Shown here piece by piece: positions 5,733 through 21,814 of a DNA stretch of 64,000 nucleotides (positions within the stretch are counted from its first letter, which is position 1; the number at the start of each line of letters is the position of its first letter). Source of the DNA: Microbulbifer sp. YPW16 (GTDB lineage: Bacteria > Pseudomonadota > Gammaproteobacteria > Pseudomonadales > Cellvibrionaceae); assembly GCF_021290385.1 (NCBI RefSeq), contig NZ_CP089928.1, positions 372,001 to 436,000 on the forward strand, given 5' to 3'. The notes beneath the pieces were generated by a model. The model ran no database searches and was not told the origin of the DNA. It was given only the letters and a program-made list of their open reading frames with translations. A program made the position numbers and the translations under genes.

Positions 5733-5780
5733 TCCTGGCCTCTGTTGGTTATCCAGAATTCTGTCTGGTTGTCTTGTGTG

Positions 5781-6575
5781 TCACCGGCGGTTGTTATCGT
5801 TCAGGCGCCAGTCGTATTCGAGATAGATGATATCCATTTCATTGGCCCGCAGGGCCGCAGCCTGTGCGGCACTCAGGCCCAGTGCCTCGCGGTAATCCAG
5901 CAGGAACTCGCCAAGACTACTGTGGCCGCGCCAGCCTCGACTGAAGTCGTCGCGATACCACTCGAATATCGGTGACAGCCTCAGCCCCCCTGGAGTGGCG
6001 CGGTTGCGCGAGCGATCCGACAGGAACCGGCGAGCCTGCTGCTCCAGTTGCTGTTCCAGCCGCTCCCCGGTATAGGCCTCCTCGCGCAGCATCGGGCAAC
6101 CGACACTCGCACAATTGACGGCGAAATGGATGCGGGGCTCATTGAAATCCCGGCGGATCATGCCGTGCTCAATCTCGTCCAGAGAATACCTGCGGCCGAA
6201 CAGGGCGACGAACTCCCGGCGCCAGGGTGCACCCGGAAGCCAGCCGATATCACGGATGGAATCAAGGCCCGGGTATTCTGCCAGCACCAGCTGGATGGTC
6301 GCGGCATTATAAGCGTTGATGAGGAAAGCCAGTTGGTCAGCCTCTTCCCAGCCATCAAAGGTATTCCGGTCCACCTCGGCCAGTTGTGCCAGGTAACGGA
6401 CCAACTGTTGCCGGTCTGCCTGCATTCCCCTGTAATCCACGGTAGAGGAGTGACCGCCATCAGCCAGGATTACATGATCCTGCAACAGGTTCGACCAGAT
6501 GTGGTGATCCGGAACAGTGGCCCGGGCCAGGGTAAACTGGCTCAAGAGCAGGATGATAACGAGAATACGCGGCAT
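5781..6575 (-). CDS. DUF547 exported protein
   Basis: 264-residue protein with a signal peptide (MPRILVIILLLSQFTLARA) and a DUF547 domain covering most of the rest. The family marks are FLINAYNAATIQLVL near residue 95 and IHFAVNCASVGCPMLREEAY, with the conserved NC...C pattern suggesting a catalytic or structural cysteine. The molecular role of DUF547 is not established; the fold has been compared with cysteine-hydrolase-like proteins. A longer in-frame start exists at 6659, but the signal peptide begins at ATG 6575, which has AAGAG upstream. It lies between two TonB receptors on the same strand, so a periplasmic role connected with their substrate is an inference. Confidence 0.88.
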   Translation of the reverse strand: MPRILVIILLLSQFTLARATVPDHHIWSNLLQDHVILADGGHSSTVDYRGMQADRQQLVRYLAQLAEVDRNTFDGWEEADQLAFLINAYNAATIQLVLAEYPGLDSIRDIGWLPGAPWRREFVALFGRRYSLDEIEHGMIRRDFNEPRIHFAVNCASVGCPMLREEAYTGERLEQQLEQQARRFLSDRSRNRATPGGLRLSPIFEWYRDDFSRGWRGHSSLGEFLLDYREALGLSAAQAAALRANEMDIIYLEYDWRLNDNNRR

Positions 6576-6700
6576 CGGGTGACTCTTATCGATCGCTGGT
6601 GACGGTTTCCGCCTATGCTGGAACAAGAGTCGTGCCGGGCGCTGATTTATTACAGTCAATCGCCACTGCCATTATCCGGGTCCTCGATAGTATCCGGCTG

Positions 6701-8776
6701 TCACAGCTGCAATGCTAACTCGGCATAGAGAGACCGTGATTCCCCGGGGAAGTACCGGTCGCCACTGAAGTTACTGAAATCCGCACGCTCCGCGTATTCC
6801 TCATCCAGCAGGTTGAGTAACCGCAGGCCTACTGACCAGCCCTCGCCCAGCTGCCGGGTGGCGCGCGCGTGCAGCAGGTCATGGCCCGGGTAGCTGTGCT
6901 GGTTGAGTGGATCTGTGTAGTAGCGCCCCTGGTGCAACCATTCGAGTTCCACCTGCGTGGCGGCATCCGGCTGCCATTGGAGCCGGGCCGAACCAAAACT
7001 GCGCGGCGCGGAGTCCAGCAGCCTGCCATCCAGGGCGATTCCCTCTAGCAGTCGCTCATCGTCGAAGCGGTGCTCCGCATAGCTCGCTGACACATCCACC
7101 AACCAGTTCGGTGCCAGCTGGTAACCCAGTGCCAGCTCCAGGCCCTGATGGCTAGTGGTCCCGCCGGACCGGTTAAAGAAGTCGGCATCGCGAAAGATCA
7201 CATTGTGCTTCTCCATGGCATAGCCGACCAACTCGTAGTCGATGCGACCTCCCCCACCCCGCAGCCCAAGTTCGACGCTGCGAATCTCCACGGAGTCCAG
7301 GTCAGCCACTTCCTGCTCCCGCTGCAGGCGGTAGAGCTCCGTCGCCTGGGGGGCACGAAAACCGTGGGCCAGGTTTGCGAACACTTGATGGGCAGGCGTC
7401 CAGTCGTATACCAACCCCAGCTGCGGTGACCAGTTTTCAAAGCCATCGCGACGATCGGCGGGACGGCTATAGCGGCAGCCGCCAAAACCACAGCTGCTGC
7501 CATCCTCGCGGGATCGGCCGGCCAGCATGTGGTTGTCATAGTCATAGGACAGGCTTTCCAGCCGCAGCCCCGCCTCCAGGACCAGTTGTTCCGTCAGCCG
7601 CAGGGATGCCAGTGCATAGGGCGACAGTAACAACGCATTGACTCGATAATCGTAATGCCGACCCGGTGGCACGGTTTCCGCCAGGAATTCGGATCCTGTG
7701 GCAATGCCGGACTGAGACTGGCGCAGGGAGGCCCGGGTATATTCCCCATCGAGGCCCGTTGCGACGCGGAGCGAATCACTGACTGGCAGTATAAGGCTGG
7801 TCCGTACACCGGCGCTGCGATGGGCTGTTTCTTCGAGGGGCTGTCCGGGCAGGAAGTGCTGCAGGAACTGCATGTCCCCGTAGCGGGCGTACGGCGTGAC
7901 CTGCAGGGAATAGCCGTCGCCCCACTCGGTTGCCATGCTGTGCGACAGGCGTGCGGTGCGCACATTGCGAAAGGCCTCGGGGTTTGGGTTTGAGCGCCGC
8001 AGCGTGACGTCCCGGTAGGCTTCCTCCCCCACCACATAACCGGCGGTCTCCTGCTCCAGGTTGGTGGCATTGAAGCGGGTCTCGGAACTGGACTGCCCCC
8101 TGCGGTGCACCACGGTCAGCTTCTGCTGGTCATAACCGGAACTGGCCCGGTAACCGCCGTCACTGGCCAGGGAGATGGCGGTAAGCAGGCCCGACTCAGT
8201 CCCGGTAGCAGTGGGGACACGGCTGGAGAATTTCCAGCGGTCGTTGGGCCCGGCTTCCAGGCTCATGGCTCCGGTGTCCCCGGATTGGTACGACGGGCCC
8301 AGTACATTAATCACCCCGTGCATGGCGCCCGCCCCATGTAAGGTGCCCGCCGGTCCACGCACTACCTCGATACGCTCTGCCTGCTCACTGTGTGCCGCAA
8401 ACAGTTCATTCACATTACAGAAGCCGGCGGGAAACAGTGGGATGCCGTCCTGCATGGCCAGCACGCTGCCGCAGGCACCGGCGCCAGTCAGTACCGGTGA
8501 ACGGAGTGCCGGCAGGTATTCCTGCCCGTTACCGCGGCTCAGGTTTGCCCCGGGAACCCGTGCCAGGCTCTGCTGGATATGGCTGTGGTTCACCAGTGCC
8601 AGCGCATCGGCACCCAGCACCGCCATGCTGCCGGCGTAGTCAGCCCGACTGCTGTGCAGCGGGCTGCCGGTGACCACCACGGTTTCCAGCTGGCCACGAA
8701 CTTGCTCCACGGCCTGGTCGCTGGCAAAAGCGTCCCCGCTCAAAAGTAACGCCGTCACGAGTGCCGCCCTGCGCAT
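6701..8776 (-). CDS. TonB-dependent outer-membrane receptor
   Basis: 691 residues: signal peptide (1-19), a clear TonB box LETVVVTGSP near residue 31, a plug to about residue 160 with the EVVRGPAGTLHGAGAMHGVIN motif ending in INVL, then a barrel. The plug contains two cysteines in GAGACGSVLAMQDGIPLFPAGFCN split over about 16 residues, an unusual pair that could form a disulfide or touch a metal. The C-terminus ELALQL ends in Leu rather than Phe. The start ATG has AGGAG at 8 bp. It is upstream of the DUF547 gene (125-bp gap) and a second receptor, all on one strand. Its own upstream region holds the terminator of the acrB-like gene. Substrate unknown. Confidence 0.92.
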   Translation of the reverse strand: MRRAALVTALLLSGDAFASDQAVEQVRGQLETVVVTGSPLHSSRADYAGSMAVLGADALALVNHSHIQQSLARVPGANLSRGNGQEYLPALRSPVLTGAGACGSVLAMQDGIPLFPAGFCNVNELFAAHSEQAERIEVVRGPAGTLHGAGAMHGVINVLGPSYQSGDTGAMSLEAGPNDRWKFSSRVPTATGTESGLLTAISLASDGGYRASSGYDQQKLTVVHRRGQSSSETRFNATNLEQETAGYVVGEEAYRDVTLRRSNPNPEAFRNVRTARLSHSMATEWGDGYSLQVTPYARYGDMQFLQHFLPGQPLEETAHRSAGVRTSLILPVSDSLRVATGLDGEYTRASLRQSQSGIATGSEFLAETVPPGRHYDYRVNALLLSPYALASLRLTEQLVLEAGLRLESLSYDYDNHMLAGRSREDGSSCGFGGCRYSRPADRRDGFENWSPQLGLVYDWTPAHQVFANLAHGFRAPQATELYRLQREQEVADLDSVEIRSVELGLRGGGGRIDYELVGYAMEKHNVIFRDADFFNRSGGTTSHQGLELALGYQLAPNWLVDVSASYAEHRFDDERLLEGIALDGRLLDSAPRSFGSARLQWQPDAATQVELEWLHQGRYYTDPLNQHSYPGHDLLHARATRQLGEGWSVGLRLLNLLDEEYAERADFSNFSGDRYFPGESRSLYAELALQL

Positions 8777-8818
8777 CCCGGTCTCCTGTTGCGATTATTT
8801 GCTGCGCATTCTAACGCA

Positions 8819-8849
8819 CAAAAAAAAACGCCGGCGAATGCCGGCGTTT
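8819..8849 (-). terminator. Rho-independent terminator after the RND pump operon
   Basis: A 10-bp GC-rich stem (8826-8835 with 8840-8849, loop GAAT) is followed on the minus strand by a run of T residues (complement of the A run from 8820). It lies 45 bp after the stop of the acrB-like gene and directly before the next TonB receptor start, so it separates the two transcription units. Confidence 0.88.
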
Positions 8850-8893
8850 CCAATCAGGCGGGATGCGCCTGTTGTCAGGTCATATTCGCCCGG

Positions 8894-11800
8894 TCAGGTC
8901 ACATCTGCCGTCGCACTTTCACGCAGGTCTCCCCTGGCGGGCGCCACTGGTTCACTTGCGGACTCTTCCGTATTGCGTGAGCGACCAAACAGCCGCTGTA
9001 CGATAACGAAGAACAGCGGGATAAAGAAAATCCCCAGCGATGTCCCAACCAGCATGCCGCCCAGCACCCCGGTACCGATAGCCTGCTGGGCACCGGAACC
9101 GGCACCGGAGGCAATGGCCAGCGGCAGTACACCCAGGCCAAAGGCCAGCGAGGTCATCAGGATCGGGCGCAGGCGATCGCGCACTGCGCGCATGGTGGCC
9201 TGCACCAGCTCCATGCCCTCTTCCAGGTTCTGCTTGGCGAATTCCACGATCAGGATGGCGTTCTTGCTGGTCAGGCCCACGGTGGTGAGCATGGCCACCT
9301 GGAAGTAGATATCCCGCTCCATGCCGCGCAGCGTGTTCGCGAGCACGGCCCCGAGGATGCCCAGCGGTGCGACCAGCAGTACCGCAGTGGGCACCGTCCA
9401 GCTCTCGTAGAGAGCCGCCAGGCACAGGAATACGATCAGCAACGACAGCGTATACAGCAGCGGTGTCTGTGCCCCCGCCTGGCGCTCCTGGTAAGACAGG
9501 CCGGTCCATTCCAGGCCGACGCCGCCCGGCAACTCGCTGACCAGTCGCTCCATCTCCGCCATGGCCTCACCGGAGCTGACACCCGGTGCGGCAGAGCCGT
9601 TGATCTGCATCGCCGGAACGCCGTTGTAGCGCTCAAGGCGCGGGGAGCCGTACTCCCACTCGAAGCTGGCAAAGGTCGACAGCGGCACCATTTCGCCGTC
9701 CCGGTTACGCACGGACCACTTCTGGAAATCCTCCGGCACCATTCGATACGGCGCATCAGACTGCACGTAGACCTTCTTGACCCGGCCACGGTCAATAAAG
9801 TCATCGATATAACGGCCGCCCCAGGCGGTGCCGATGGTGGTATTGATCTCGTTGATCGAGAGACCGAGTGCAGCTGCCTTCTCGGTATCAATGTTCAGGC
9901 GGAACTGGGGTGTATCGTTCTGGCCATTGGGACGCACATTTGCCAGCAGCGGGCTCTGTGCCGCCGCACCCAGAAGCTGGTCGCGCGCTTGCGTGAGCGC
10001 CTCGTGCCCCAGGTTGGCATTGTCCTTCAGGTAGAAGTCAAAGCCGCCGGAGGTACCCAGGCCCGGCAGTGCCGGGGGGGAGAACGCGAAGGCCATGGCG
10101 TCCTTGATCTGCATCAGCGCGCCCATGGCCCGCATGGCTACCGAACCCGCGTCCTGGCCAGGCTCCTCGCGCTCTTCCCAGTCGTGCATATTGATGAAGG
10201 CAATACCGTTGTTCTGGCCGCTACCCGCAAAGCTGAAGCCCTGCACGCTGAATACAGATTTAACGGTGTCCTGCTCGTTCTCGAGGTAATAGTCCTCTAC
10301 TTTCTTGATCGACTCCATGGTGCGCTGCTGGGTGGCGCCCACCGGAGCATTGATCATGGAAAACAGCACACCCTGGTCCTCTTCGGGAAGGAAGGAACTG
10401 GGCAGGCGCAGGAAGAGCACCAGCATCACAGCGGCGAGGCCGGCAAACAGCAGCATAAAACGGCCGCCCCGCGCCACGATCTCGCGTACACCACGCTGGT
10501 AGCCGGCTGTTCCGCGTTCAAAATTGCGGTTGAACCAGCCGAAGAAGCCCTTCTTCGCATGCCCCTCGCCTTTCGCAATTGGCTTGAGCATGGTGGCGCA
10601 GAGGGCCGGTGTCAGCACGATGGCCACCAGCACCGACAGTGCCATGGCCGCGACGATGGTGGCCGAGAATTGCCGGTAAATTACCCCGGTGGCGCCTTCC
10701 ATAAATGCCATGGGCACGAATACCGCCGAGAGCACCACGCCGATACCCACCAGCGCCCCGGTGATCTGCTTCATCGACTTGCGAGTGGCCTCTCGGGGCG
10801 AAAGGCCCTCTTCGCTCATCACCCGCTCTACGTTTTCCACCACCACAATGGCGTCGTCCACCAGCAGGCCGATGGCCAGTACCATGGCAAACATGGTGAG
10901 CATATTGATGGAGAAGCCCATCGCCGCCAGCACACCGAAAGTGCCCAGTAGTACGACCGGCACGGCAATAGTGGGAATAATCGTGGCGCGGATGTTCTGC
11001 AGGAACAGGTACATCACCAGGAATACCAGGATCACCGCCTCGATCAGCGTCTTGATCACGCCCTTGATGGATACCTCGACAAACGGTGTCGAGTCGAATG
11101 GCACCACGGTCCGGATCCCGGTGGGGAAATAGGGCTCCAGCTCCTTGAGCTTCGCCCGCACACCGTCGGCCGTCTCCAGTGCATTGGCGCCAGTGGCCAG
11201 GTTCACTGCCAGGCCGGTGGCCGGCTGGCGGTTGAAACGGCTGATGAAATCGTAATTCTCCGCACCGATCTCGACCCGCGCGATGTCCCCCAGCTTGAGC
11301 ACCGAGCCATCGGGATTGGAGCGGATCACAATGTCGCGGAACTGTTCAGGAGTCTCCAGCCGGCCCTGGGATACCACATTGGCATTGAGCTGCTGGCCAT
11401 CGATGGCCGGGGTTCCACCCAGGCTGCCCACCGCCACCTGCTGGTTCTGCGCCTGTACCGCCGCGATCACATCACTGGGGACCAGCTTGTAGGTTTCCAG
11501 CTTGTTCGGATCCAGCCAGATACGCATGGCGTACTGGGAACCGAATACCTGCACACCGCCCACGCCGGGCACCCGGCTGATAGCGTCGACAATATTGGCA
11601 TTGATATAGTCGGCGATATCCGCACGGTCCATGCGGCCGTCCTCGGATACGAAACCCACGACCATCAGGAAGCCGCTGCGGCCCTTGCCAACATTCACCC
11701 CCTGTCGCTGCACCGCTTCCGGTAACAGCGGCAGGGCCAGTTGCAGTTTATTCTGCACCTGTACCTGGGCAATATCGGGGTCTGTGCCATTGGCGAAAGT

Positions 11801-12076
11801 CAGCGAGATATTCACCCGGCCATTGGATTCGCTGGTGGCGGACATATACAGCAGCCCATCGAGCCCGGTCATGCCCTGCTCGATAACCTGTGTCACCGAT
11901 TCCTCCACCACCCTGGCAGATGCACCGGGGTAGCTGGCACTGATGGATACCGTGGGGGGCGCGATATCCGGGTAACGCTCTACAGCGAGCTTGCTGACCG
12001 CGAGCCCGCCACCGAGCATCACGACGATCGCGATCACCCAGGCAAAGATGGGACGGTCAATAAAGAAAGATGCCAT
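8894..12076 (-). CDS. RND multidrug efflux inner-membrane pump (AcrB/MexB, HAE-1 family)
   Basis: 1060 residues, typical for HAE-1 RND transporters. These are trimeric proton-drug antiporters that work with a periplasmic adaptor and an outer-membrane channel. Seen: N-terminal [16 protein letters not shown], the transmembrane-4 aspartate pair in [13 protein letters not shown] (equivalent to AcrB D407/D408), the lysine of transmembrane 10 in [13 protein letters not shown], two large periplasmic loops and about 12 membrane helices. A strong GAGGGGG ribosome site precedes the ATG, which lies 11 bp after the adaptor gene stop. No outer-membrane channel gene is present, so a TolC-like protein must come from elsewhere. 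Specific substrates cannot be assigned. Confidence 0.96.
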
Positions 12077-12087
12077 GGTACGCCCCC

Positions 12088-13254
12088 TCAGGAATCAGCT
12101 GCAGCAGCGCTTTCCGCCGCAGGGGCAGGCTGTTCAGGTTCAGCGGACACGGTGGTGACCTCAACGCCCGGGCGGACTTTCTGCAGTCCCTCGACGATAA
12201 CCCGGTCACCCGCCTGCAGGCCGTCCTCAACCAGCCAGTGGCTGCCAACGGTCTGGCTGACAGTCAACGGGCGCATTTCAACCTTGTTATCTGTGTTCAC
12301 GACCATGGCATTGGTGTTGCCCCTGGGGTCGCGAGTGACGCCCTGCTGCGGTACCAGGATCGCATTATCGCGCACGCCGCGGCCAACCACGGCACGGACG
12401 TACATGCCGGGCAGCAGCATGTGCTCGGGATTGGGAACCACGACCCGCAGCAGGACACTGCCGGTGGTGGGGTCCACGGTGGCCTCGGCAAATTCCAGCT
12501 TGCCCTTGTGCTCGTAGGTAGATCCGTCATCAAGCAGGATCGTCACCGGGAGATCTGTGGTGTCTTCCACTTTACCGGCCTCCAGGGCACGGCGCAGTTG
12601 CAGCAGCTCGCTGGTGGACTGGTTAAGGTCGACGTATATCGGGTCGAGTTGCTGGATAGTCGCCAGTGCCTGTGCCTGGTTCGCTGTCACCAGGGCACCC
12701 TGGGTCACTGATGATTTGCCGATCCGGCCACCGATCGGGGCACTGATGCGGGCATAGTCCACCGGGATACGACTGCGCTTGACCGACGCCAGGGCATTGG
12801 CAACCGCGGCCTCGGCCTTCTTGAGGTCCGCGCGGGCACTGTCGTTATCCTGCTTGCTCACCGCGCCGGTTTTCACCAGGTTGGCGACACGGTCGGCGCG
12901 CAGCCGCGCCACCTCAAGCTCGGCCCGGGCGCTCTGCAGGTTGGCCCGGGCGCTGTCGTAGTCGGCACGGTAAGTGGCATCGTCAAGCTGGTAAAGCGGC
13001 TGGTCGGCCTCGACAATCCCGCCCTCGCGGAACAGCTGCTGTTCCACCAGGCCGTTCACCCGTGGGCGAACCTCGGCGACTTTATACGGATTGGTACGGC
13101 CCGGTAACTCACGGGTCAGGGTTACTGACTCGGGCTCCAGGGTCACCACCGCCACCTCCGGCGCCATTTGCGGCCGTCCGCCCTGGTCCTGGCTACATGC
13201 CGTCAGCAGTGACAACGCGGCCATCAGGCCGGCCAACAGATTCCGTTTCCGCAT
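12088..13254 (-). CDS. RND efflux periplasmic adaptor lipoprotein (AcrA/MexA type)
   Basis: 388 residues. A lipoprotein signal ends in the lipobox LLTAC, with Cys20 as lipidation site. The barrel-sandwich/biotinyl-lipoyl halves flank a coiled-coil hairpin (about 95-170, rich in [20 protein letters not shown]-type repeats). A beta-barrel and a membrane-proximal domain follow, with an Ala/Glu-rich C-terminal tail. It links the pump downstream to an outer-membrane channel. GGAGAGG precedes the ATG. It is the first gene of the pump operon, divergent from the TetR-family gene, and the palindrome at 13385-13398 is the probable repressor target. Confidence 0.95.
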
Positions 13255-13384
13255 CTACACCTCTCCAGTGACCCGATGGTCCAAATGCTGCCAGCGGACC
13301 GGATGGTCAGTTCGCTTTGACAGTTATGAATGGTTAACAATGCCGCGCATTCTATCGCTTCGCCGAGATGTGCAGCAAGTATTC

Positions 13385-13398
13385 ATTCATGCATGAAT
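13385..13398. promoter_or_regulatory. Palindromic candidate operator between tetR and the RND operon
   Basis: Perfect 14-bp palindrome ATTCATGCATGAAT, with further ATTCAT/ATGAAT half-sites offset by half a base pair on its flanks. It lies in the 254-bp divergent region, upstream of the TTG start chosen for the TetR gene and 130 bp from the adaptor gene. Local TetR-type repressors of RND pumps usually bind such sites; assignment to this repressor is inference. Confidence 0.6.
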
Positions 13399-13508
13399 AT
13401 GAATTAAACTTCGCGCCCGGATGGACCGGTAGCGCCGGCCATCCTACCCCGTATGTGGACCAATCCCGCGGGCGAATAGATAAACGGTTGCCACCAGAGG
13501 ACAGAAAG

Positions 13509-14153
13509 TTGGCCAATAAGCGGAAAGAAGACGCGCTGGAGACAAGGGAACGCATCCTGGATGCGGCCATCACAGTATTTCACCAGCAGGGCCTGGCGCG
13601 TCCGTCACTGACCGAGGTGGCAGAGCTCGCGGGCGTCACACGCGGTGCGGTATACGGGCACTTCCGCAACAAGGCCGATGTCTTCAATGCCCTGGCCGAG
13701 CGGGTCCAGTTACCGGGTGAAAAGCTGTGCGAGGAAGGCGGCTGCGAGCCACCGGAGAACCCGCTGGGAGTCCTGCGGACCCGCTGGCTGTGGCTGTTCC
13801 AGGAAGTCGCGTGCAACCGGGACTGGCAGCTGATCCTGGATATCATCTTCCATCGTTGTGAGCTGGTCACAGAGAGCGGCGAGATCCGCCAGCGCATGCT
13901 CGACTGCACCGAGGAGGGACAGGAACGGGTCCGCCAGCTGATCAGCTGGGCGGTTGACCGGGGCCAGCTGCCCGGCGACCTGGATATCGACCTGGCAGCT
14001 CCACTGCTGCACAGTTCGCTGGTTGGCACCCTGGGCGACTGGCTGCTCCAGCCCCGCGACCGGGACCTGGCCTGTATTGGCGAGCGCTACCTGGATGCCA
14101 TGATCGAAATGCTGCAGCACTCCCCTACCCTGCGCCGCAGTATACCCGCCTGA
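13509..14153 (+). CDS. TetR/AcrR-family transcriptional repressor of the RND pump
   Basis: 214-residue TetR-family protein. The N-terminal helix-turn-helix reads RERILDAAITVFHQQG, then VAELAGVTRGAVYGHFRNK (recognition helix). The C-terminal all-helical ligand and dimer domain matches the AcrR/TtgR type (RTRWLWLFQEVACNRDWQLI). An upstream in-frame ATG at 13368 would run translation through the operator palindrome and add 47 residues with no family similarity. TTG 13509, with AGAGGA 7 bp upstream, gives a normal N-terminus, so I use it. Divergent placement beside an AcrAB-type operon is the usual arrangement for a drug-sensing local repressor. Confidence 0.9.
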   Translation: MANKRKEDALETRERILDAAITVFHQQGLARPSLTEVAELAGVTRGAVYGHFRNKADVFNALAERVQLPGEKLCEEGGCEPPENPLGVLRTRWLWLFQEVACNRDWQLILDIIFHRCELVTESGEIRQRMLDCTEEGQERVRQLISWAVDRGQLPGDLDIDLAAPLLHSSLVGTLGDWLLQPRDRDLACIGERYLDAMIEMLQHSPTLRRSIPA

Positions 14154-14208: not shown

Positions 14209-15903
14209 TTACAGGGCGAAGCCCAGTAACAGGTAGACGCCCAACAGCAACACCACCCCCGCGACCATACTCCCGGTCAGCCAGCTCCGTGCCAGCACGC
14301 CCGCCGGCCTGTGGTGGCTGGCGACCGAATCCATCAGGGCCCCCACGCCACCAATGGCCGCGCGGCGGACGCGATTGTCGAGGCGGAAGGCGGCGGTCAC
14401 AAAGCCGCGTATTGCCTGCGGGAACAACCGGCGGTACAGCCATTCAACGTCCAGGTTGACCGACGGCAATTCCGGCGGGTACAGGCGGCGCAGGTTCAGC
14501 CATACAAACGCCAGCGCAGAGAAGAACAGCAGCTGCAGCTGGGTCAGCACATGGGTGACGTCGTAAGGTGTATACGCCATCTCATGGGGCAACAGGCTGT
14601 AGAGCGCTTGCGGGTAAATACCGATGGCCAGGCACAGGGACGCCGCAATTGTCATTGCCACCAGCATATTGGCAGGCGGCTCCTTCGCCCTGATACCCGA
14701 GTCGTGGGCAAAGAAGGCGAAGTACGGGATCTTGATGCCGGCATGGTGGAAGACACCCGCGGACGCAAACAGCAGGATCAGCCACACCCAGTCATAACCA
14801 TTCTTGATCGCCGCACTCATCACCATCGACTTGCTGACAAAGCCGCTGAACAGCGGGAAGGCGGAAATCGAGGCCGCACCGACGATGCACAGGATGGTGG
14901 TCTTGGGCATGGTCTTGTACAGGCCGCCCAACTCCGAACCATTGATGCGGCCGGTGACGTGCAGGACTGCCCCCATGGACATGAACAGCAGCCCCTTGAA
15001 GATCACATCGTTAAACGCATGGGCCACAGCGCCATTGATGGCCAGTGAAGTACCGATACCAATACCCACCACCATAAAGCCCAGCTGGTTGATCAGGCTG
15101 TAGGCCAGCACCCGGCGCAGGTCATTCTCGATCACGGCATAAAAGATCGGGAAACAGGCCATGGTCGCACCGATGTAGACCAGCAACTCTGTGCCCGGAT
15201 AGGCCCGCGCCAGTGCATATACCGCCGCCTTGGTGGTGAATGCACTCAGGAACACAGTGCCGGTCGGGGTGGATTCCGGGTAAGCATCGGTGAGCCAGTT
15301 GTGGAAGAAAGGGAAGGCACACTTGATACCGAAGGCCAGGAAGATCATCCAGCTGTAGGCGTTGTCGCCCAGCCCGATCTGCCCGAAAGCGAGAGAGCTG
15401 TGGGCCTGGCCGTAGAAGATAATCCCGCCTAGCAACAGCAGGCCCGAGAGAATATGCAGCGTGAAGTACCGCAGGCCGGCCATATACGCGCGGCCATTGC
15501 GGCGCGCCCAGACCAGGAATACGGAAGTGACCGCGAGCAGCTCCCAGAAAATAAACAGGGTCAGCAGGTCCCCCGCAAATACTGCGCCCAGGGCACTACC
15601 GGCATAGAGCAGGCTGGCCACCTGCTGCAGGGTGTCGCGCACATGCAGTGCGTAAATGATCGCAATCAATGCCGCCACATGGAACAGGTAGCCGAATAAC
15701 AGGCTCAGCTTGTCTGCACGGAAAAGCAACAGGTCAAATTCGAGCACCGAATAGGCCCCGAAACTGCCAGCGCCCAGCATCCACAGGTTGGCCAGTCCCA
15801 GCAAGGGTACAGCGATCATTACCAGCGCGCGCGGCCAGCCACGCAGGACCAGTGCCAGCAATGCGGCGACGAAAAACGGAATGAAAGGTGCCACCTCAAA
15901 CAT
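14209..15903 (-). CDS. Mrp-type antiporter subunit D-like 3 (NuoL/M/N superfamily)
   Basis: 564-residue polytopic membrane protein of the proton-pumping complex I/Mrp superfamily, with about 14 helices. The conserved charged chain is intact: Glu in LLTLFIFWELLAV, Lys in FGIKCAFPFFHNWL and Lys in NDVIFKGLLFM. A C-terminal extension of about 90 residues includes LPSVNLDVEWLYRR, an amphipathic stretch, and a last membrane helix. This makes it longer than MrpD and more like an MrpA/NuoL-type lateral element, but it lacks the MrpA C-terminal domain. I choose ATG 15903, which has GGAGGT 7 bp upstream, over GTG 15918. It overlaps the preceding small gene by 8 bp and is the last gene of the operon. 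Confidence 0.88.
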   Translation of the reverse strand: MFEVAPFIPFFVAALLALVLRGWPRALVMIAVPLLGLANLWMLGAGSFGAYSVLEFDLLLFRADKLSLLFGYLFHVAALIAIIYALHVRDTLQQVASLLYAGSALGAVFAGDLLTLFIFWELLAVTSVFLVWARRNGRAYMAGLRYFTLHILSGLLLLGGIIFYGQAHSSLAFGQIGLGDNAYSWMIFLAFGIKCAFPFFHNWLTDAYPESTPTGTVFLSAFTTKAAVYALARAYPGTELLVYIGATMACFPIFYAVIENDLRRVLAYSLINQLGFMVVGIGIGTSLAINGAVAHAFNDVIFKGLLFMSMGAVLHVTGRINGSELGGLYKTMPKTTILCIVGAASISAFPLFSGFVSKSMVMSAAIKNGYDWVWLILLFASAGVFHHAGIKIPYFAFFAHDSGIRAKEPPANMLVAMTIAASLCLAIGIYPQALYSLLPHEMAYTPYDVTHVLTQLQLLFFSALAFVWLNLRRLYPPELPSVNLDVEWLYRRLFPQAIRGFVTAAFRLDNRVRRAAIGGVGALMDSVASHHRPAGVLARSWLTGSMVAGVVLLLGVYLLLGFAL

Positions 15904-16246
15904 GTTCCTGACCTCCACTCATCCCTTCCTCCTGCGACCGTGATTCCGTACCGGTCGCACCATTGGCCCCGGTAGCCGTATCACCGCCGAGCTCCAGCCG
16001 GTCGTAATAGTCTTCCGGGCGCATCAGGAACTTGCGCATCCACTTGGCAATGATCACCAGGATCACACAACCAACGAATCCATACAGCGGGTAGAATCCG
16101 GGTAGCCCTTCCCAGCCGTGTTCTGTATGCCGGTGGACCACGAAATCCGCGAGCACCAGCAGCGCGCAGATCGCGTAGAAGGTGCGCAGGATCCGCTGGA
16201 TATTCTCCGGCTTGTCGAAAAAGTCTTGCTTGTCACCAGTGCTCAT
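15896..16246 (-). CDS. Small conserved membrane protein of the Mrp-like operon
   Basis: 116-residue protein with two predicted helices (about 20-37 and 52-66), a GFYPLYGFVGCVILVIIAKW core and a charged MRPEDYYDRLE segment. The C-terminus is low-complexity Gly/Thr/Glu. I do not recognise it as MrpA-G. It is tightly embedded: it starts 4 bp after the D2 gene stop and overlaps the D3 gene by 8 bp, so it is translationally coupled between two proton-channel subunits. An accessory or assembly subunit of the antiporter complex is the likely role, by position only. Confidence 0.8.
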   Translation of the reverse strand: MSTGDKQDFFDKPENIQRILRTFYAICALLVLADFVVHRHTEHGWEGLPGFYPLYGFVGCVILVIIAKWMRKFLMRPEDYYDRLELGGDTATGANGATGTESRSQEEGMSGGQEHV

Positions 16247-16250
16247 CGGG

Positions 16251-17717
16251 TCAGATTCCGGCCTTGATCAGCTGATAGATAATGTCGGGGTAAATCAATA
16301 GCAGGACACAGCCCGTGGCTGTAATCCCCAGCGCCAGCAACGACGGCCACGGGGCCTCGCGTACGGCGACACTGGCGTCGCCGGTATCGGCCGGTAACGC
16401 ATCGGAGAAAAATGCCCGCAACGGGATCGGTAACAGGTAGGCGATACTGAGCAGCGAACTCACCATCAGCAGCCCCATCAGCCACAGCTCGCCTGCCTCC
16501 AGGGTACCCAGTAACAGGTACCACTTGCTCCAGGTGCCGCCGGTTGGCGGAATACCGATAATACAGAGGCTGGCGACCAGGAAGGCGCCCATGGTAATTG
16601 GCATCTGCCGGCCCAGGCCGCGCAACTGCCCCACCTCGGTTTTGTGGGCAGCCACCAGGATGGCACCCGCACAGAAAAACAGGGTGATCTTGCCAAAGGC
16701 GTGCATCACGATGTGCATCGCACTGCCGGTCATCCCGGCGCTGGTCGCCAGTAGTGCGCCCAGGGTGATATAGCCAAGCTGGCTCACGGTGGAGTACGCG
16801 AGACGCTTCTTCAGGTTTTCCTGCCGCATTGCCACAATGGCGGCCAGCAGGATTGATGCGCCCGCCAGGTAGAGCAGCCACTGGGTGGCGGGAATCTCAC
16901 GCAGGGTCTCAAGGCCAAAAATCAGCAGGCACACCTTGAGCAGCACAAAGACACCCGCCTTTACCACCGCAACCGCGTGCAGGAGAGCACTTACCGGAGT
17001 TGGCGCCACCATGGCAGCCGGCAGCCAGCGATGAAACGGCATGATCGCCGCCTTGCCCACACCGAATACATAAAGGACAAGCAATAACGACAACAGGCCT
17101 GCCGGGGTATCCCCGCTGAATACGCCCCCGCGCTGGAAAGACAGTGTCCCGGCCAGCAACCAGGTGGCGATGATTGCCACCAGGAAGAAAGCCACCGAGG
17201 TGCCCAGCAAGATGCCCAGGTAAACGCGACCACCCTCCCGCGCCTTGTCGGTACCGGCATGGGTGACCAGCGGATAGGTACACAGCGTCAGGATCTCGTA
17301 GAAAACGAACAGGGTGAACAGGTTCTCGGCAAAGGCGATGCCCATCACCGCAGCGATGGAAATCGCAAAAAATGCAAAGAAGCGGGTCTGGTTCTGCTCG
17401 CCGTGCCCCCGCATATAGCCAATGGCGTAGAGCGTGGTGACGATCCACAGGCCACTGGCGACCATGGCAAACAGCAGCCCCAGGGGCTCAACCCGGAATG
17501 CCAGCGCCAGTCCCGGGAGCACCTCAAGCCACAACAGCTCTACCGCCTGCCCCGCCATGATCACCGGGTAAAGGTTGCAGACCGAGGCAAACAGCAGGGT
17601 GCCGGCGACCAGCGATACGCTCTCACGCAGGTTCTGGTGCTTGCCCGTGAGCGCGATACCGGCCGCTGCCAGCAGGGGAATCAGGAGGCTGAGTTGCAGG
17701 AGGCCTACAGCAGACAT
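16251..17717 (-). CDS. Mrp-type antiporter subunit D-like 2 (NuoM/N superfamily)
   Basis: 488-residue membrane protein with 14 helices of the Proton_antipo_M family. Key ionisable residues are visible: Glu in NLFTLFVFYEILTL, Lys in FGVGKAAIMPFHRWLP, and Lys in HVMHAFGKITLFF-type context (HAFGKITLF). The PTPVSALLHAV motif of the discontinuous helix is intact. It shares TAATG overlap with the upstream mrpD gene, so translation is coupled. It is a second, clearly diverged D-like subunit rather than a recent duplicate. Confidence 0.9.
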   Translation of the reverse strand: MSAVGLLQLSLLIPLLAAAGIALTGKHQNLRESVSLVAGTLLFASVCNLYPVIMAGQAVELLWLEVLPGLALAFRVEPLGLLFAMVASGLWIVTTLYAIGYMRGHGEQNQTRFFAFFAISIAAVMGIAFAENLFTLFVFYEILTLCTYPLVTHAGTDKAREGGRVYLGILLGTSVAFFLVAIIATWLLAGTLSFQRGGVFSGDTPAGLLSLLLVLYVFGVGKAAIMPFHRWLPAAMVAPTPVSALLHAVAVVKAGVFVLLKVCLLIFGLETLREIPATQWLLYLAGASILLAAIVAMRQENLKKRLAYSTVSQLGYITLGALLATSAGMTGSAMHIVMHAFGKITLFFCAGAILVAAHKTEVGQLRGLGRQMPITMGAFLVASLCIIGIPPTGGTWSKWYLLLGTLEAGELWLMGLLMVSSLLSIAYLLPIPLRAFFSDALPADTGDASVAVREAPWPSLLALGITATGCVLLLIYPDIIYQLIKAGI

Positions 17718-19198
17718 TATTGGATACCTCCCAGCAGGTACTGCGCCACGGCACCGGTGACTTCAACCGGCAGGCGCGTATCGATACCAAAGTAGATGTT
17801 CGCGCCGATAAGGATCCACGTAGGCACCAACAGGGACAGCGGGGCTTCGCCAACAGTCACGTCCCCGCCCGCGGGTGCCTGACGGAAGTATCCCGCCTCT
17901 ACCAGGCGCCAGACATAGATTGCAGCGATCAGCGAGCCGAGCACCACCAGCAGTGCCACCAACCACATATCGCTCTCGATAGCGGCAGTAATCAGGTACC
18001 ACTTGCTGACAAACCCCACGGTGAGCGGCATGCCGATCAGGCTGATCCCGCCGATCACGATGGCCGCCATGGTCCAGGGCATGGTGCGCCCGAGACCGTT
18101 GAAGGCATCGATCCGGCTGCTGCCCAGGCGATAGACCAGGCCTGCCAGTGCCAGGAACAGGCCACCCTTCATCAATGCATGGTTGAACAGGTGCAACAGT
18201 GTTGCCTGCATGGCGACGACACTGCTGATACCGATACCCACCACCATGTAGCCGATCTGGGCAACACTGGAATAGGCCAGCATCCGCTTGATGTCTACCT
18301 GGTAAATGGCGACAACCGAGGCCACAAACACACCCACCAGGCCCAGGCCGATAAACAGGGACTGTAATGGCAGGCTGGTGAGTGAGAAGTCGATACCGAA
18401 TACGGTGACGATAAAACGCACCAGCAAGTACAGGGCCACCTTGGTGGCTGTCGCTGCGAGAAAGGCGGTAACGATGGACGGTGCAAACGCGTAGGCGTTG
18501 GGCAACCACATATGGAGCGGGAACAGTGCCAGCTTCAGGCACACGCCGACAACAATAAAGGCGAAGGCAGCGAGTACTGTACTGGAGCTACCGAGCTCGG
18601 GGAGGCGCAACGCCAGGTCGGCCATATTGAGGGTACCGGTCATCATGTACAGGAAGCCGATACCAATGAGGATAAACGTCGCCCCGATGGTCCCCATGAT
18701 CAGGTACTGGAATGCGGCCCACAATGAACGCCGGTCCCGCCCCAGTGCAATCAGTGCATAGGTGGCGAGGGAAGAGATTTCCAGGAATACAAATACATTG
18801 AATACGTCACCGGTAGCGACGATACCCAGCAGCCCGGCAAAACACAGCAGGTAGAGGGTATAAAACAGTGTCTGCCGCAGGTCATCCATTTCGCGCTGCA
18901 CACTCTGCCGCGCCGCGGCAATTACTGCAGTGCCCAGGCCGGTGACCACCAGCAGCACCCAGGCGTTGAGCAGGTCGATCCGGTATTCAATCCCCCAGGG
19001 CGCCTCCCAGCCCCCCAGACGGTAGCTAATGGGCCCGGAGTCGATCACCTGCTGTAGCAGCAGGACACTGACAACCAGTGCGCCAGCACTGACCAGCAGG
19101 GAAAAGAACCAGACCAGGCTGGAGCGCCGGATCAGCATGCACGAGGGTGCGGCTACCAGCGGCAGGATAACCTGTAAAATCGGTAAGTGGCTCAGCAC
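17717..19198 (-). CDS. mrpD: Mrp-type cation/proton antiporter subunit D
   Basis: 493-residue MrpD/MnhD, an inner-membrane proton-channel subunit. Seen: GDVFNVFVFLEISSLATYAL (conserved Glu), LKLALFPLHMWLPNAY (Lys), FAPSIVTAFLAATATKVALY (broken helix), LAYSSVAQIGYM, and HLFNHALMKGGLFL (His and Lys). ATG 19198 sits 7 bp inside the end of mrpC. Of the three D-like proteins in the operon this is the closest to canonical MrpD and to MbhH, which also follows the MrpC-type subunit. Confidence 0.93.
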   Translation of the reverse strand: MLSHLPILQVILPLVAAPSCMLIRRSSLVWFFSLLVSAGALVVSVLLLQQVIDSGPISYRLGGWEAPWGIEYRIDLLNAWVLLVVTGLGTAVIAAARQSVQREMDDLRQTLFYTLYLLCFAGLLGIVATGDVFNVFVFLEISSLATYALIALGRDRRSLWAAFQYLIMGTIGATFILIGIGFLYMMTGTLNMADLALRLPELGSSSTVLAAFAFIVVGVCLKLALFPLHMWLPNAYAFAPSIVTAFLAATATKVALYLLVRFIVTVFGIDFSLTSLPLQSLFIGLGLVGVFVASVVAIYQVDIKRMLAYSSVAQIGYMVVGIGISSVVAMQATLLHLFNHALMKGGLFLALAGLVYRLGSSRIDAFNGLGRTMPWTMAAIVIGGISLIGMPLTVGFVSKWYLITAAIESDMWLVALLVVLGSLIAAIYVWRLVEAGYFRQAPAGGDVTVGEAPLSLLVPTWILIGANIYFGIDTRLPVEVTGAVAQYLLGGIQ

Positions 19199-19599
19199 TG
19201 CACTTCCTCCGCCTGCATCTCACGCTTCTCCTGTTCTGCCTGGATCTCACGCTTTTCTTCCTCTGCCTGGATCTCACGCTCCTCTACCGAGCCATAGGCC
19301 CGCATGATCCGGATCACCAGGGCCAGGGCCAGCGAAGTGGTGGCGATGCCGACCACAATTGCAGTGAGGATCAATACGTGGGGCAGTGGGTTGGAGTAGA
19401 CATTTTCCCCCTCTATCAGGATCGGCGCCGCACCGCCATCCACTTTGCCCACACTGATATAAAAGATGAAAACAGAAGTCTGGAAGATATTCAGGCCAAT
19501 GATTTTCTTGATCAGGTTGCCCTGTGCCACAACCATGTACAGGCCAATCATCATCAGCGCGATAACAATCCAGTAGTTGTACAGCGATGTTATTAACAC
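19192..19599 (-). CDS. mrpC: Mrp-type antiporter subunit C (NuoK-like)
   Basis: 135-residue NuoK-like protein with three helices; family core LIKKIIGLNIFQTSVFIFY and LPHVLILTAIVVGIATTSLA. The start is GTG 19599, with GGAGG about 10 bp upstream. After residue 104 the protein carries a hydrophilic tail of three near-identical nine-residue repeats (REIQAEEEK, REIQAEQEK, REMQAEEVQ). These are encoded by a 27-bp tandem repeat and are absent from typical MrpC of about 110-115 residues. The tail is highly charged, probably helical, and on the cytoplasmic side. Confidence 0.92.
   Translation of the reverse strand: MLITSLYNYWIVIALMMIGLYMVVAQGNLIKKIIGLNIFQTSVFIFYISVGKVDGGAAPILIEGENVYSNPLPHVLILTAIVVGIATTSLALALVIRIMRAYGSVEEREIQAEEEKREIQAEQEKREMQAEEVQC
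19211..19287 (-). repeat. 27-bp tandem repeat in the 3' end of mrpC
   Basis: The pentamer GCCTG and the surrounding 27-bp unit recur at 19211, 19238 and 19265 (plus-strand reading); the third copy is partial. The unit keeps frame and encodes the nine-residue REIQAEEEK repeat at the C-terminus of MrpC. The first copy lies within 15 bp of the mrpD start codon. Confidence 0.9.
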
Positions 19600-19600
19600 C

Positions 19601-20617
19601 TTATCCGGCCCTCCCCGGGCTTAACTGCTCCGGCGCATCGTTGCGATCCTGTAGCTGCTCCGAGAACAGATAGAACACCAGCATCATCACAGCGGCCACA
19701 GTAATGCCGACCCCCAACTCGATGACGATAATACCTATGTGCTGCCCGCTTACCGGGTCTCCGGCAAGCGCACTGTAATCGAGGAAGTTTTTACCGGTTG
19801 CCATGCCCAGCAGGCCTACTGAACCGTAAATCAGTACTCCCAGGGCGGCGAGGAATTGCACCAGGCCATTCCCGGCCACACGGCGAACTGCGTCGAGGCC
19901 AAACACCAGGGCGTAGAGGATAAAACCAACAGCGAAGATCACCCCGGCCTGGAAGCCGCCGCCGGGGCCGTACTCACCGTGAAACTGCACGTAGAGCGCA
20001 TATACCAGTATCGGCGGAATCAGTACCTTTGCTGCCATACGCAACACCAGGTGCTGGCGCGGTATAGCCTGGAGGGCCGTCCCCGTCTCGCGCGCCCCCC
20101 GCATTCCCAGCAACAGGCTCAACACACCCAGGCCGGCAGTAAAGATCACCACCACTTCACCGAGGGTGTCGTAGGCGCGATAACTGGCCAGTACCGAAGT
20201 CACGATATTGGGGATGCCGATTTCAGCCATGGAATCCTGGATATAGCGGGGTGCCACGTGGGTCTGGGCTGGCGCGGTGGGGTCGCCAAACGCGGGCATA
20301 TCCAGTGTTGCCGCCACCAGCAGGGCACCAACGGTGGCCACCAGGCCCAGCGCCAGCAGGGCGCGTTTGCGATCGGAACGCTGCTTGCGGCCGCACAGGG
20401 CCAGCGTGGCCAGGATCAGCAGCGGTGAAATACCCGCACCCACCGCAGCCTCGGTAAAGGCCACATCCACCGCACCCATCGTCATGAAGAAGCTTGCGGA
20501 CAACAATCCGTAAATGCCGGCCAGCATTGCGGCACTGAAGAGATCCCGCGTCCAGGCGATAGCCACCGCTGTGGTCAGCAAGAGGCTAAGCAGGACAATA
20601 TCGAGTACTAAATCCAT
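19601..20617 (-). CDS. Mrp-type antiporter subunit: fused MrpA C-terminal (DUF4040) and MrpB (MnhB) domains
   Basis: 338 residues. Residues about 1-130 carry the DUF4040-type hydrogenase-4/MrpA C-terminal segment (LFSAAMLAGIYGLLSASFFM, VDVAFTEAAVGAGISPLL) and the start of the next segment. Residues about 190-320 are an MnhB domain (KVLIPPILVYALYVQFHGEYGPGGGFQAG split here, then GIIVIELGVGITVAAVMM). In bacterial Mrp these parts belong to MrpA and MrpB; in archaeal MBH they are the separate small subunits D, E and F. No NuoL-like MrpA N-terminal half exists in the operon. The gene starts 14 bp after mrpG and ends 2 bp before mrpC. Confidence 0.9.
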   Translation of the reverse strand: MDLVLDIVLLSLLLTTAVAIAWTRDLFSAAMLAGIYGLLSASFFMTMGAVDVAFTEAAVGAGISPLLILATLALCGRKQRSDRKRALLALGLVATVGALLVAATLDMPAFGDPTAPAQTHVAPRYIQDSMAEIGIPNIVTSVLASYRAYDTLGEVVVIFTAGLGVLSLLLGMRGARETGTALQAIPRQHLVLRMAAKVLIPPILVYALYVQFHGEYGPGGGFQAGVIFAVGFILYALVFGLDAVRRVAGNGLVQFLAALGVLIYGSVGLLGMATGKNFLDYSALAGDPVSGQHIGIIVIELGVGITVAAVMMLVFYLFSEQLQDRNDAPEQLSPGRAG

Positions 20618-20631
20618 GTGGTCACCCCAGT

Positions 20632-21036
20632 TCAGGCGCGGTCGGCATTGGCTGCGTCCGCCTCGAGGGCCGGTTCCGCGATTTCTGTCCCCTGCCCCGG
20701 TTCAGGGAATGCCTCATCGGCACCCTGCTCTGCTACCGGCTCCAGCCGCAGTGGGCTGTGCTGGGCGGCCTTGGCGAGTGCATGGCTGGCAGCGGGACTG
20801 GTAAAAAAGATAAACAGGAGAATCAGGCCCAGTTTGAACAGTGCAAGGCTCCAGCCGGCCTGCAGCATCAGCGCACAGACAATCAGGAAGGTGGCCAGGG
20901 TATCGGTCACCCCCGCCGCATGCATGCGTGTATAAAAATCAGGAAAGCGCAACAGGCCGACTGCCCCTGAAACCATAAACAGGCAGCCCAGCGCCAGCAG
21001 TAGCCCGCTCAGGCCGTCCACCAGCAAATCGCTCAT
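20632..21036 (-). CDS. mrpG: Mrp-type antiporter subunit G
   Basis: 134-residue MnhG/PhaG protein with three helices and the family motif GLLRFPDFYTRMHAAGVTDTL cut by position (about 27-47). The canonical part ends near residue 90; a Glu/Ala-rich C-terminal tail of about 45 residues follows. ATGA overlap with mrpF shows translational coupling. A small integral subunit needed for complex assembly in studied Mrp systems. Confidence 0.93.
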   Translation of the reverse strand: MSDLLVDGLSGLLLALGCLFMVSGAVGLLRFPDFYTRMHAAGVTDTLATFLIVCALMLQAGWSLALFKLGLILLFIFFTSPAASHALAKAAQHSPLRLEPVAEQGADEAFPEPGQGTEIAEPALEADAANADRA

Positions 21037-21344
21037 GAGCCAGCCCCCCCTTCACCAGGGGTATATTCATGCCGGCCAGCCCCTTGGTCCCGGCTACCGG
21101 AACGAAACTCGAAGTAGCGCAGCACGCCCACCACGCTGACAAAATTGATCAGTGCGTAAACCAGGGCAATATCCAGGAACTCGGGCTTACCCAACGTGAA
21201 GCAGATCACCGCGATCAACACCACCGTTTTGGTGCCAAACACGTTCACCGCCAGGATACGGTCATAGATGGTGGGACCCAACAGGGCCCGGACAAGTGCC
21301 AGGACCATAACCACCAGCAGAGCTAAAATTGTTGCAGCGAGCAT
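21033..21344 (-). CDS. mrpF: Mrp-type antiporter subunit F
   Basis: 103-residue MnhF/PhaF protein with three helices and family motif RALLGPTIYDRILAVNVFGTK (about 19-38). The last 20 residues are polar. TAATG overlap with mrpE upstream and ATGA overlap with mrpG downstream. Part of the same complex; in studied systems MrpF contributes to sodium or cholate efflux. Confidence 0.93.
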   Translation of the reverse strand: MLAATILALLVVMVLALVRALLGPTIYDRILAVNVFGTKTVVLIAVICFTLGKPEFLDIALVYALINFVSVVGVLRYFEFRSGSRDQGAGRHEYTPGEGGAGS

Positions 21345-21814
21345 TATTTTTCCAGAGCCCTCACTTCGCGTTCCATTTCCCCACCGCGCAGGTCTTCTAA
21401 CCCGCCGGCAGTCAGTGCATGCACCAGGACCTCATCGCCCTCGATATCCACAGCCACGGTACCCGGTGTCAGGGTAATGGAGTTGGCATAAAGCACCTTC
21501 CCCAGATCGGAATGGAAGCGTGCGGGGATCCGCGCGCTCACCGGACTGATGGATGCAGGCCCGCGCCATACATTAATCACCACGTCGATATTGCTACGCA
21601 CAATCTTTGTGAAAAGCCACCAGTAGTATCGCGGCAGGCGGGACAAAAGATGCACGGGCTGCGACTCCTGGTCTATCAACCCCATGCGCCGTGCAATCAC
21701 CATAACCAGTAATACCGAGACCAGGCCAAAGGAAAGCAGGAGCCCGGTGTAATGGCCGGAGTTGGCCAACCAGACGAATGCAAGAATCGCGAACAGTGCC
21801 AGTGTGTAACGCAT
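21344..21814 (-). CDS. mrpE: Mrp-type antiporter subunit E
   Basis: 156-residue MnhE protein: two N-terminal membrane helices, then a soluble domain with ANSITLTPGTVAVDIEGDEV, the family signature. I use ATG 21814 rather than the TTG codon 3 bp upstream. It is the first gene of the antiporter operon. All nine genes downstream overlap or lie within 15 bp of each other, so a single transcript starting upstream of 21814 is expected. Confidence 0.92.
   Translation of the reverse strand: MRYTLALFAILAFVWLANSGHYTGLLLSFGLVSVLLVMVIARRMGLIDQESQPVHLLSRLPRYYWWLFTKIVRSNIDVVINVWRGPASISPVSARIPARFHSDLGKVLYANSITLTPGTVAVDIEGDEVLVHALTAGGLEDLRGGEMEREVRALEK

Follow-up and report, generated by a model that had tools for sequence, protein, structure and literature searches.

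A Probable Group 3 Mrp Antiporter Operon with Three Antiporter-like Subunits in Microbulbifer sp. YPW16 and a Gene Trio Shared with Complex I Operons

Introduction

The membrane hydrogenase MBH, the sulfur reductase MBS and Mrp antiporters, and respiratory complex I carry one, two, or three antiporter-like subunits in line, respectively. The present work concerns an Mrp-like operon of nine genes found in a 64,000-nucleotide stretch of the genome of Microbulbifer sp. YPW16 (hereafter the window; positions 372001-436000 of a single 4.19-Mb contig). It encodes three such subunits, designated D1, D2, and D3, and a small membrane protein, designated x, between the last two. The operon probably represents a stand-alone group 3 Mrp antiporter with the three antiporter-like subunits arranged in a row, and the trio D2-x-D3 was also found inside complex I operons of other bacteria.

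Group 3 Mrp systems are defined by the absence of mrpA and sometimes have several mrpD genes (PMC8415708); examples with multiple mrpD or an irregular gene order are on record (PMC5703873, PMC7784846, PMC8415708). The closest experimentally studied relative is the stand-alone mrpEFGBB'CD system of Pyrococcus furiosus, a likely user of Na+ (PMC8415708). Mrp modules are also built into MBH and MBS (PMC8415708, PMC7684303), and in known complexes a lateral helix bridges neighbouring subunits (PMC7684303). In the so-called green complex I, two MrpD-like subunits replace NuoL (PMC9040806), and this complex is upregulated in nodules of the strains that have it (PMC7415380).

Results and Discussion

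Operon Organization and Comparison with Known Systems

The nine open reading frames (ORFs) lie on the minus strand from 21814 to 14209 in the order E-F-G-[MbhD/MbhE/MrpB fusion]-C-D1-D2-x-D3, and adjacent ones overlap or have 1-14 bases between them (Table 1). Pfam matches above the cut-off were obtained for every one of the E, F, G, C, MbhD/E, and MrpB parts. The fusion protein contains PF13244 (residues 12-74), PF20501 (98-178), and PF04039 (MnhB, 191-312), matches NCBIfam model NF009161 above its cut-off, and aligns with residues 604-922 of 7d3u_A and with chains D, E, and F of 6cfw. For D3, an alternative in-frame ATG start is possible at 15903. The MBH-like order E-F-G-fusion-C-D-D2-x-D3, proposed in a preliminary description made from the window alone, is borne out by the ORF coordinates, the Pfam matches, and the relatives considered below.

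Table 1. Genes of the Mrp-like operon, with positions in the window.
Feature	Position	Strand	Basis
mrpE-like (MNHE)	21344..21814	-	Pfam PF01899, 96 bits; ATG at 21814
mrpF-like	21033..21344	-	Pfam PF04066
mrpG-like	20632..21036	-	Pfam PF03334; NCBIfam TIGR01300 above cut-off
Fusion, 338 aa: MrpA C-half equivalent (MbhD + MbhE) + MrpB	19601..20617	-	
mrpC/nuoK-like	19192..19599	-	PF00420 (Oxidored_q2)
D1, MrpD-type antiporter-like subunit, 493 aa	17717..19198	-	Proton_antipo_M; PDB matches; tree
D2, MrpA-N/NuoL-like antiporter-like subunit, 488 aa	16251..17717	-	Proton_antipo_M; PDB matches; TM8; tree
x, small conserved membrane protein between D2 and D3, 116 aa	15896..16246	-	Two predicted helices
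D3, antiporter-like subunit, 569 aa from GTG	14209..15918	-	Proton_antipo_M; NF009310, 731 bits, above cut-off

The mrpA gene, whose absence marks group 3, is lacking in this operon, in which the antiporter core and MbhD/MbhE are encoded by separate ORFs. As to the large subunits, expected to be of the MrpD type only, D1 is MrpD-type, D2 leans, not decisively, towards MrpA/NuoL, and D3 forms a lineage of its own. The full-length MrpA characteristic of groups 1 and 2 is absent from the operon and present at another locus. Since the definition of group 3 fits a stand-alone operon of this kind (PMC8415708), the operon class is already known. The likeness to MBH modules seen in the preliminary description stands, but not as a new category, the class having been defined (PMC8415708) and a Nitrospira case published (PMC7784846).

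The group 3 Mrp of P. furiosus and the MBH/MBS modules share the E-F-G-B-B'-C-D order and the MbhD/MbhE/MrpB domains with the window's operon, and the P. furiosus stand-alone Mrp likewise has neither an MrpA protein nor an energy-input module (PMC8415708); however, it has one D, whereas the operon described here adds D2, x, and D3 and fuses B with B'. The group 3 Mrp of Ca. Nitrospira alkalitolerans also has two NuoM/NuoL-like genes after mrpD, but its locus, compared by description only, includes nhaB, bicA, and motB as well, and the consulted portion of the report mentions no small gene in between (PMC7784846). Canonical Mrp systems (groups 1 and 2) have homologous E, F, G, C, B, D, and MrpA C-half parts, but their MrpA N- and C-halves are fused and their antiporter-like subunits number two, in contrast to three in the window's operon, with the lateral helix on D3. 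The membrane arm of complex I (NuoL/M/N) resembles the operon in having three antiporter-like subunits, of which the distal one bears a lateral helix, and differs from it in that the operon has a cation module and no quinone/NADH module. The same D2-x-D3 trio occurs in the green complex I of rhizobia, to which Complex_I_3 of Manganitrophus is likened by description only (PMC9040806). The green trio is homologous but joined to nuo genes, whereas that of the window is joined to an Mrp core, so that the phrase "in place of NuoL" cannot be applied to the window's operon.

Identity of the Three Antiporter-like Subunits

The best PDB sequence matches were MbsH, MbhH, and MrpD for D1; NdhF, NuoL, and MrpA for D2; and MbhH, MrpA, and MbsH' for D3. 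A phylogeny of the three D-like proteins, proposed as a check in the preliminary description, placed D1 with MrpD, D2 near MrpA/NuoL (not decisively), and D3 separately. In the 57-row tree, D1, D2 together with the green complex I D2, and D3 together with the green D3 each formed one clade (100/100). A weak branch (51/87) set D1 on the MrpD/MbhH/NuoN side, D2 was sister to MrpA+NuoL (98/94), and D3 had no resolved neighbour. In the reduced tree (35 rows), D1 grouped with MrpD (97/94) and D2 with MrpA+NuoL (84/79). Before tree construction, the N-terminal frame extensions of D2 in three loci (L045, L119, and L121) were cut, and the genome's own MrpA was represented by its first 520-560 residues. 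D3 rows were cut before the lateral helix in the D3-only trees, D2 tree rows consisted of the last 500 residues, and PDB rows in alignments and trees were partial chains.

The pattern of His and Lys on transmembrane helix 8 (TM8) separates MrpA, NuoL, and MrpD (PMC7419157). This segment reads HAVAVVKA in 12 of 12 operon-type D2 rows and HAVAVVKM in the two green D2 rows. Both residues are kept in D2 and MrpA rows, while NuoL rows keep His only and MrpD rows Lys only. On its sequence, D1 is assigned to the MrpD type, and D2 appears MrpA/NuoL-like in its TM8 signature and, less securely, in its tree position. D2 ends without a tail, leaving no room for a lateral-helix extension.

The AlphaFold2 model of D3 (mean predicted local distance difference test score, pLDDT, 92.6) shows a 45-residue lateral helix (492-536) followed by a final TM helix (548-568). 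Its top structural matches are NuoL chains, led by 8e9i_L (Z 44.2, root-mean-square deviation (rmsd) 3.3 over 524); the match with NuoL 3rko_B spans residues 6-569 (Z 43.0, rmsd 7.8), that with MrpD 7qru_D excludes the tail (Z 43.9, rmsd 2.0 over 435), and that with MrpA 7d3u_A has a Z of 42.8. D3 may thus be regarded as a separate deep lineage with a NuoL/MrpA-like lateral helix, the latter being taken from the predicted structure.

In the window, each of D1 (E140, K222, K253, and K399), D2, and D3 retains Glu on TM5 and Lys on TM7, TM8, and TM12. The three antiporter-like subunits suggested earlier are thus borne out, each with a complete set of channel residues; the label "D-type" applies to D1 but, according to the trees, TM8, and the model, probably not to D2 and D3. 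Likewise, the operon has no MrpA fusion protein, as had been stated, but, D2 being MrpA/NuoL-like and D3 bearing the lateral helix, the MrpA N-half is better seen as divided between these two subunits than as missing. A conventional MrpA-containing Mrp operon does exist elsewhere in the source genome (locus L049, G000:C1, approximately 1019700-1025500), which comes close to one of the grounds named for abandoning the earlier proposal; this MrpA need not be invoked, since D2 and D3 are conserved in the operon itself.

The TM7 Lys is replaced by Asn in D3 of two related operons (L046 and L047) and of the green complexes, as well as in further D3s from both settings. Loci L165 and L166 and complex-I D3s are among those with this replacement.

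Conservation of the Operon and Features of Protein x

Protein x was found in 21 of 58 related genomes, comprising 18 of 37 from the genus (the source genome included) and 3 of 21 others; the operon is therefore patchy within Microbulbifer. The nine-gene order was kept in all 17 loci taken from 17 related genomes in which x matched (14 of the genus and 3 of the order). L046 and L047, which belong to other families of the order, keep it at approximately 35-66% protein identity to the window's proteins, x of L047 being detected by a hidden Markov model (HMM) only.

A scan of named genomes with the D3 alignment was limited to the best 80 of at least 573 tblastn-confirmed relatives, a choice that favours close relatives. 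Their titles include Gammaproteobacteria, Alphaproteobacteria, and Desulfobacterota, together with bins labelled Gemmatimonadetes, Planctomycetota, and Polarisedimenticolaceae. Protein x is present in 78 of the 80 loci, and in the other two D3 starts at a contig end. Coordinates place it between D2 and D3 in 76; the exceptions are L096, which has no D2, L120, which could not be placed, and the two starting at contig ends. The full gene set occurs with a single AB gene in 37 loci and with two in 14; four more have the full set with E/F/G/AB called in a different order. All of the remaining 25 except L096 (x and D3 only) are truncated at contig ends. Among 398 Pseudomonadota genomes spread over the phylum, x was matched in 24; three of these matches (G361, G055, and G419; E 1e-4 to 1e-5) were weak and were dropped, and the one examined (L180) had no trio. 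A D3 relative at E 1e-80 or better is carried by 68 of 148 Desulfobacterota genomes.

Across all D3-bearing loci, x is present in 133 of 135 and lies between D2 and D3 by coordinates in 131. These counts include some genomes twice (e.g., L032/L051 and L045/L070), and the figure of 133 is not independent, because many of these loci supplied x rows to the HMM. The nine-gene order is conserved across Microbulbifer, other Gammaproteobacteria, Alphaproteobacteria, Desulfobacterota, and a Planctomycetota bin, and far exceeds chance.

These data bear on the possibility of an ordinary group 3 Mrp whose extra D copies are redundant, x being a minor accessory and the coupling unchanged. Multiple mrpD genes and irregular orders have indeed been described (PMC5703873, PMC7784846, PMC8415708); however, D2 and D3 are separate deep clades rather than recent duplicates, the window's copies retain all channel residues, and x is kept almost throughout, which makes this explanation unlikely.

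Most x frames span about 80-135 aa, and those that are longer result from N-terminal read-through. From 110 x references, row set A6 comprised 59 sequences plus those of the window and two plasmid rows, and row set A7 comprised 57 plus that of the window. Across 62 rows, F51, G56, F57, C60, V64, R76, Y80, and Y81 are near-invariant, and the protein has an EDYY-type end. The AlphaFold2 model, of low confidence (mean pLDDT 68.7), has two longer helices (13-36 and 51-74). Pfam and NCBIfam searches with 62 x members gave weak, scattered matches only; cut-offs were compared for the window's x alone, which reaches none. The family B12D (complex I MLRQ subunit) was weakly matched in seven members, with E 0.019 and 14.8 bits against a cut-off of 21.5 for the window's x. 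No match was obtained for the x profile among PDB sequences or for the low-confidence model among PDB folds.

The D2-x-D3 Trio in Complex I Operons

When x was used as a tblastn query, matches came from 99 plasmid records of Sinorhizobium, Rhizobium, Ensifer, Phyllobacterium, and Pararhizobium. The loci of Ensifer adhaerens and Phyllobacterium zundukense (L132 and L134) read nuoJ-nuoK-D2-x-D3-nuoM-nuoN-nuoA-B-C-D-E-F-G; nuoI and nuoH are encoded on the opposite strand, and nuoL is not annotated in these stretches. The arrangement nuoJ-K-[D2-x-D3]-M-N was found in two more genomes (L169 and L172), with 77-95% identity to the Ensifer Nuo proteins. These rhizobial trio loci match the green complex I as described in PMC9040806. 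All 20 Desulfobacterota loci contain x. In nine of them, the trio is located between nuoK (or nuoJ) and nuoM, and in six of these nine nuoE, F, and G were undetected in the stretch; in the other 11, it follows Mrp genes (in L216, it precedes them by call order on the contig). Thus, D2-x-D3 takes the usual place of nuoL in some complex I operons. In both machines, x is located between D2 and D3, which suggests that it has a structural role there.

In the D2 tree, with MrpA/NuoL as a distant outgroup, the 12 complex-I D2s fall on one side of a branch (83/81). This branch lies inside a set (94/92) outside which five Mrp D2s branch. This suggests that the trio belonged to Mrp first and to complex I later, although the outgroup branches are long. 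A single transfer had been considered because six complex-I-context D3s formed a single clade in an initial D3 tree (94/99, 92% of bootstraps); with more Desulfobacterota included, a single D3 clade was rejected (p-value of the approximately unbiased test, p-AU, 6e-48), L231 having a long branch. On the best tree, the 13 complex-I D3s need three changes, two of them forced by starred branches, and those of L215 and L219 are nested among Mrp D3s. With a one-sided D2 tree and complex-I D3 copies that do not form one clade, the histories of D2 and D3 differ. The trees indicate that the trio passed between Mrp and complex I, and that D3 probably did so more frequently than D2.

The length of the D3 C-terminal segment, measured from the [LVIMF]D..W..R motif to the end, was compared between the two settings. 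In the first set (94 loci measured, 3 not), Mrp operons gave 75-91 residues and the two plasmid loci 105 each; in a set of four complex I loci, the length was 104-105. The rule that a short helix goes with Mrp and a long one with complex I, with a difference resembling one subunit width, was broken by Desulfobacterota, in which 8 of 11 Mrp-context segments were 105-129 long. Over all loci, the 12 measured complex I segments were 103-129, in contrast to 73-91 in 96 of the 105 measured Mrp copies; the other nine were at least 105 (one, L120 at 166, probably mis-measured). What is retained is that the complex I D3 copies seen were never short; the length is not taken as evidence of assembly.

Proposed Architecture and Alternative Explanations

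As a stand-alone group 3 Mrp antiporter, the nine products would assemble into one complex. Its proton arm would start with D1, adjoining C and the MbhD/E part of the fusion, continue with D2, and end with D3 at the tip. By analogy with NuoL of complex I and MrpA of Mrp, the D3 lateral helix would run back along the arm and clamp it, and x would lie at or near the D2-D3 contact. E, F, and G with the MrpB part would form the cation module at the opposite end from D3. Proton entry through the channels would drive the export of a monovalent cation, presumably Na+, or the reverse. With three channels, the ratio of protons to cations may be higher than in a two-channel Mrp, possibly allowing Na+ export against a steeper gradient. 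D2-x-D3 would then be an add-on cassette that provides the clamp and the two distal channels and that also replaces NuoL in some complex I operons. A further-reaching proposal, offered tentatively and with somewhat less than an even chance of being right, is that the trio is a portable two-channel cassette with its own clamp, attached to Mrp or complex I cores to change gear (protons per cation or per electron pair), with x as a core subunit that both machines require for joining D2 to D3.

Several observations weigh against the stand-alone three-subunit antiporter or parts of it. The reduced tree retained three alternatives, D3+MrpA+NuoL (p-AU 0.196), D2+D3 (0.066), and D1+D2 (0.057), and the deeper split in the 57-row tree is weak, so that the placement of D2 with MrpA/NuoL is not decisive. 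The tie between NuoL and MrpD in the structural matches of D3 slightly lowers confidence in this explanation. As the TM7 Lys is missing from some D3s, proton conduction need not be a property of all of them, and the proton path of the copies with Asn may differ. Lateral-helix length does not track complex type cleanly. Finally, an Mrp core does not always accompany the trio at its locus. L164 has a lone D2-x-D3 (8351-11916) beside flagellar hook and CheW-type genes (Pfam), in a genome that also holds two trio-bearing Mrp copies (L165 and L166). In L096 (Gammaproteobacteria chromosome OY282353.1), x and D3 are intact at 9757-11683, and D2, D1, and the rest of the operon were not found in the 10 kb upstream.

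The lone trio of L164, together with the one-channel core that stands alone in P. furiosus (PMC8415708), would accord with two machines, namely a full one-channel Mrp made of E-F-G-fusion-C-D1 and a separate small antiporter or channel, D2-x-D3, merely co-transcribed with it. We consider this quite improbable, because the trio stands at the place of nuoL in complex I operons, which implies docking onto a proton arm, and because D3 carries the predicted lateral helix, an element that bridges neighbouring subunits in known complexes (PMC7684303). Moreover, 16 of the 135 D3 loci are without Mrp core or complex I genes, and 14 of these are contig-cut, leaving only L096 and L164.

Genomic Neighbourhood

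In the window, the operon is flanked by a TetR regulator and an RND-type (resistance-nodulation-division) efflux pair on one side and by a tail-specific protease and an exonuclease-family gene on the other. Neither the operon nor its neighbouring ORFs include a redox module, in agreement with the preliminary description, or nuo genes. The flanks of 83 relatives (756 ORFs, extending approximately 10 kb at most) contained no redox-like recurrent cluster among clusters present in at least four loci, one representative of each being checked, mostly with Pfam; unlinked partners were not searched for. The "unknown partner" suggested earlier is not encoded beside this operon; the same trio occurs inside complex I operons of other bacteria.

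That occurrence, and the presence of Mrp modules in MBH and MBS (PMC8415708, PMC7684303), would suit a membrane arm docking, in the MBH/MBS manner, to a redox module encoded elsewhere, such as the cell's own complex I or a hydrogenase. The source genome, however, already has its own nuoL, M, and N at one locus elsewhere, and no recurrent redox genes were seen in flanks of at most about 10 kb, unlinked partners not having been searched for; such docking is considered very improbable, and a stand-alone antiporter remains the preferred explanation.

Other genes were noted around the operons. The efflux pair and the TetR-type regulator lie directly downstream of the operon (window positions 8894-14153), and similar genes occur near a few Microbulbifer loci. 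At 3396-8776, a DUF547 protein is encoded between two TonB-dependent receptors (778 and 691 aa). A sensor kinase near the operon in L070 (17329-19482) has a Tll0287-like domain and a CxxCH motif (Pfam), and its kinase cluster recurs near 11 loci. In four loci, a transporter adjoins the operon; the scanned member (L097) is of the CitMHS type, which we take to be similar to NhaD. Two kinds of small same-strand proteins were observed upstream of mrpE: one in L036, L052, L056, L080, and L082, with a Rap1a domain in the scanned member (L082), and another in L045, L057, L060, L067, L070, L072, and L073 (two of these being one genome), the scanned member of which (L072) had no Pfam match.

Conclusions

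While the operon class itself is known, x, the MrpA-like features of D2, and the trio common to Mrp and complex I appear to be new. In the literature searched, no description was found of x, of the MrpA-like features of D2, or of a trio shared by group 3-type Mrp and green complex I, the original reports on the latter being known only through PMC9040806 and PMC7415380. Protein x, although retained in nearly all copies, has no Pfam or NCBIfam model. With a three-channel Mrp devoid of a redox arm, ion gradients alone would suffice to measure the contribution of each additional channel, and, since the same block occurs in Mrp and complex I operons, D2-x-D3 would represent a natural swap experiment on the coupling ratio.

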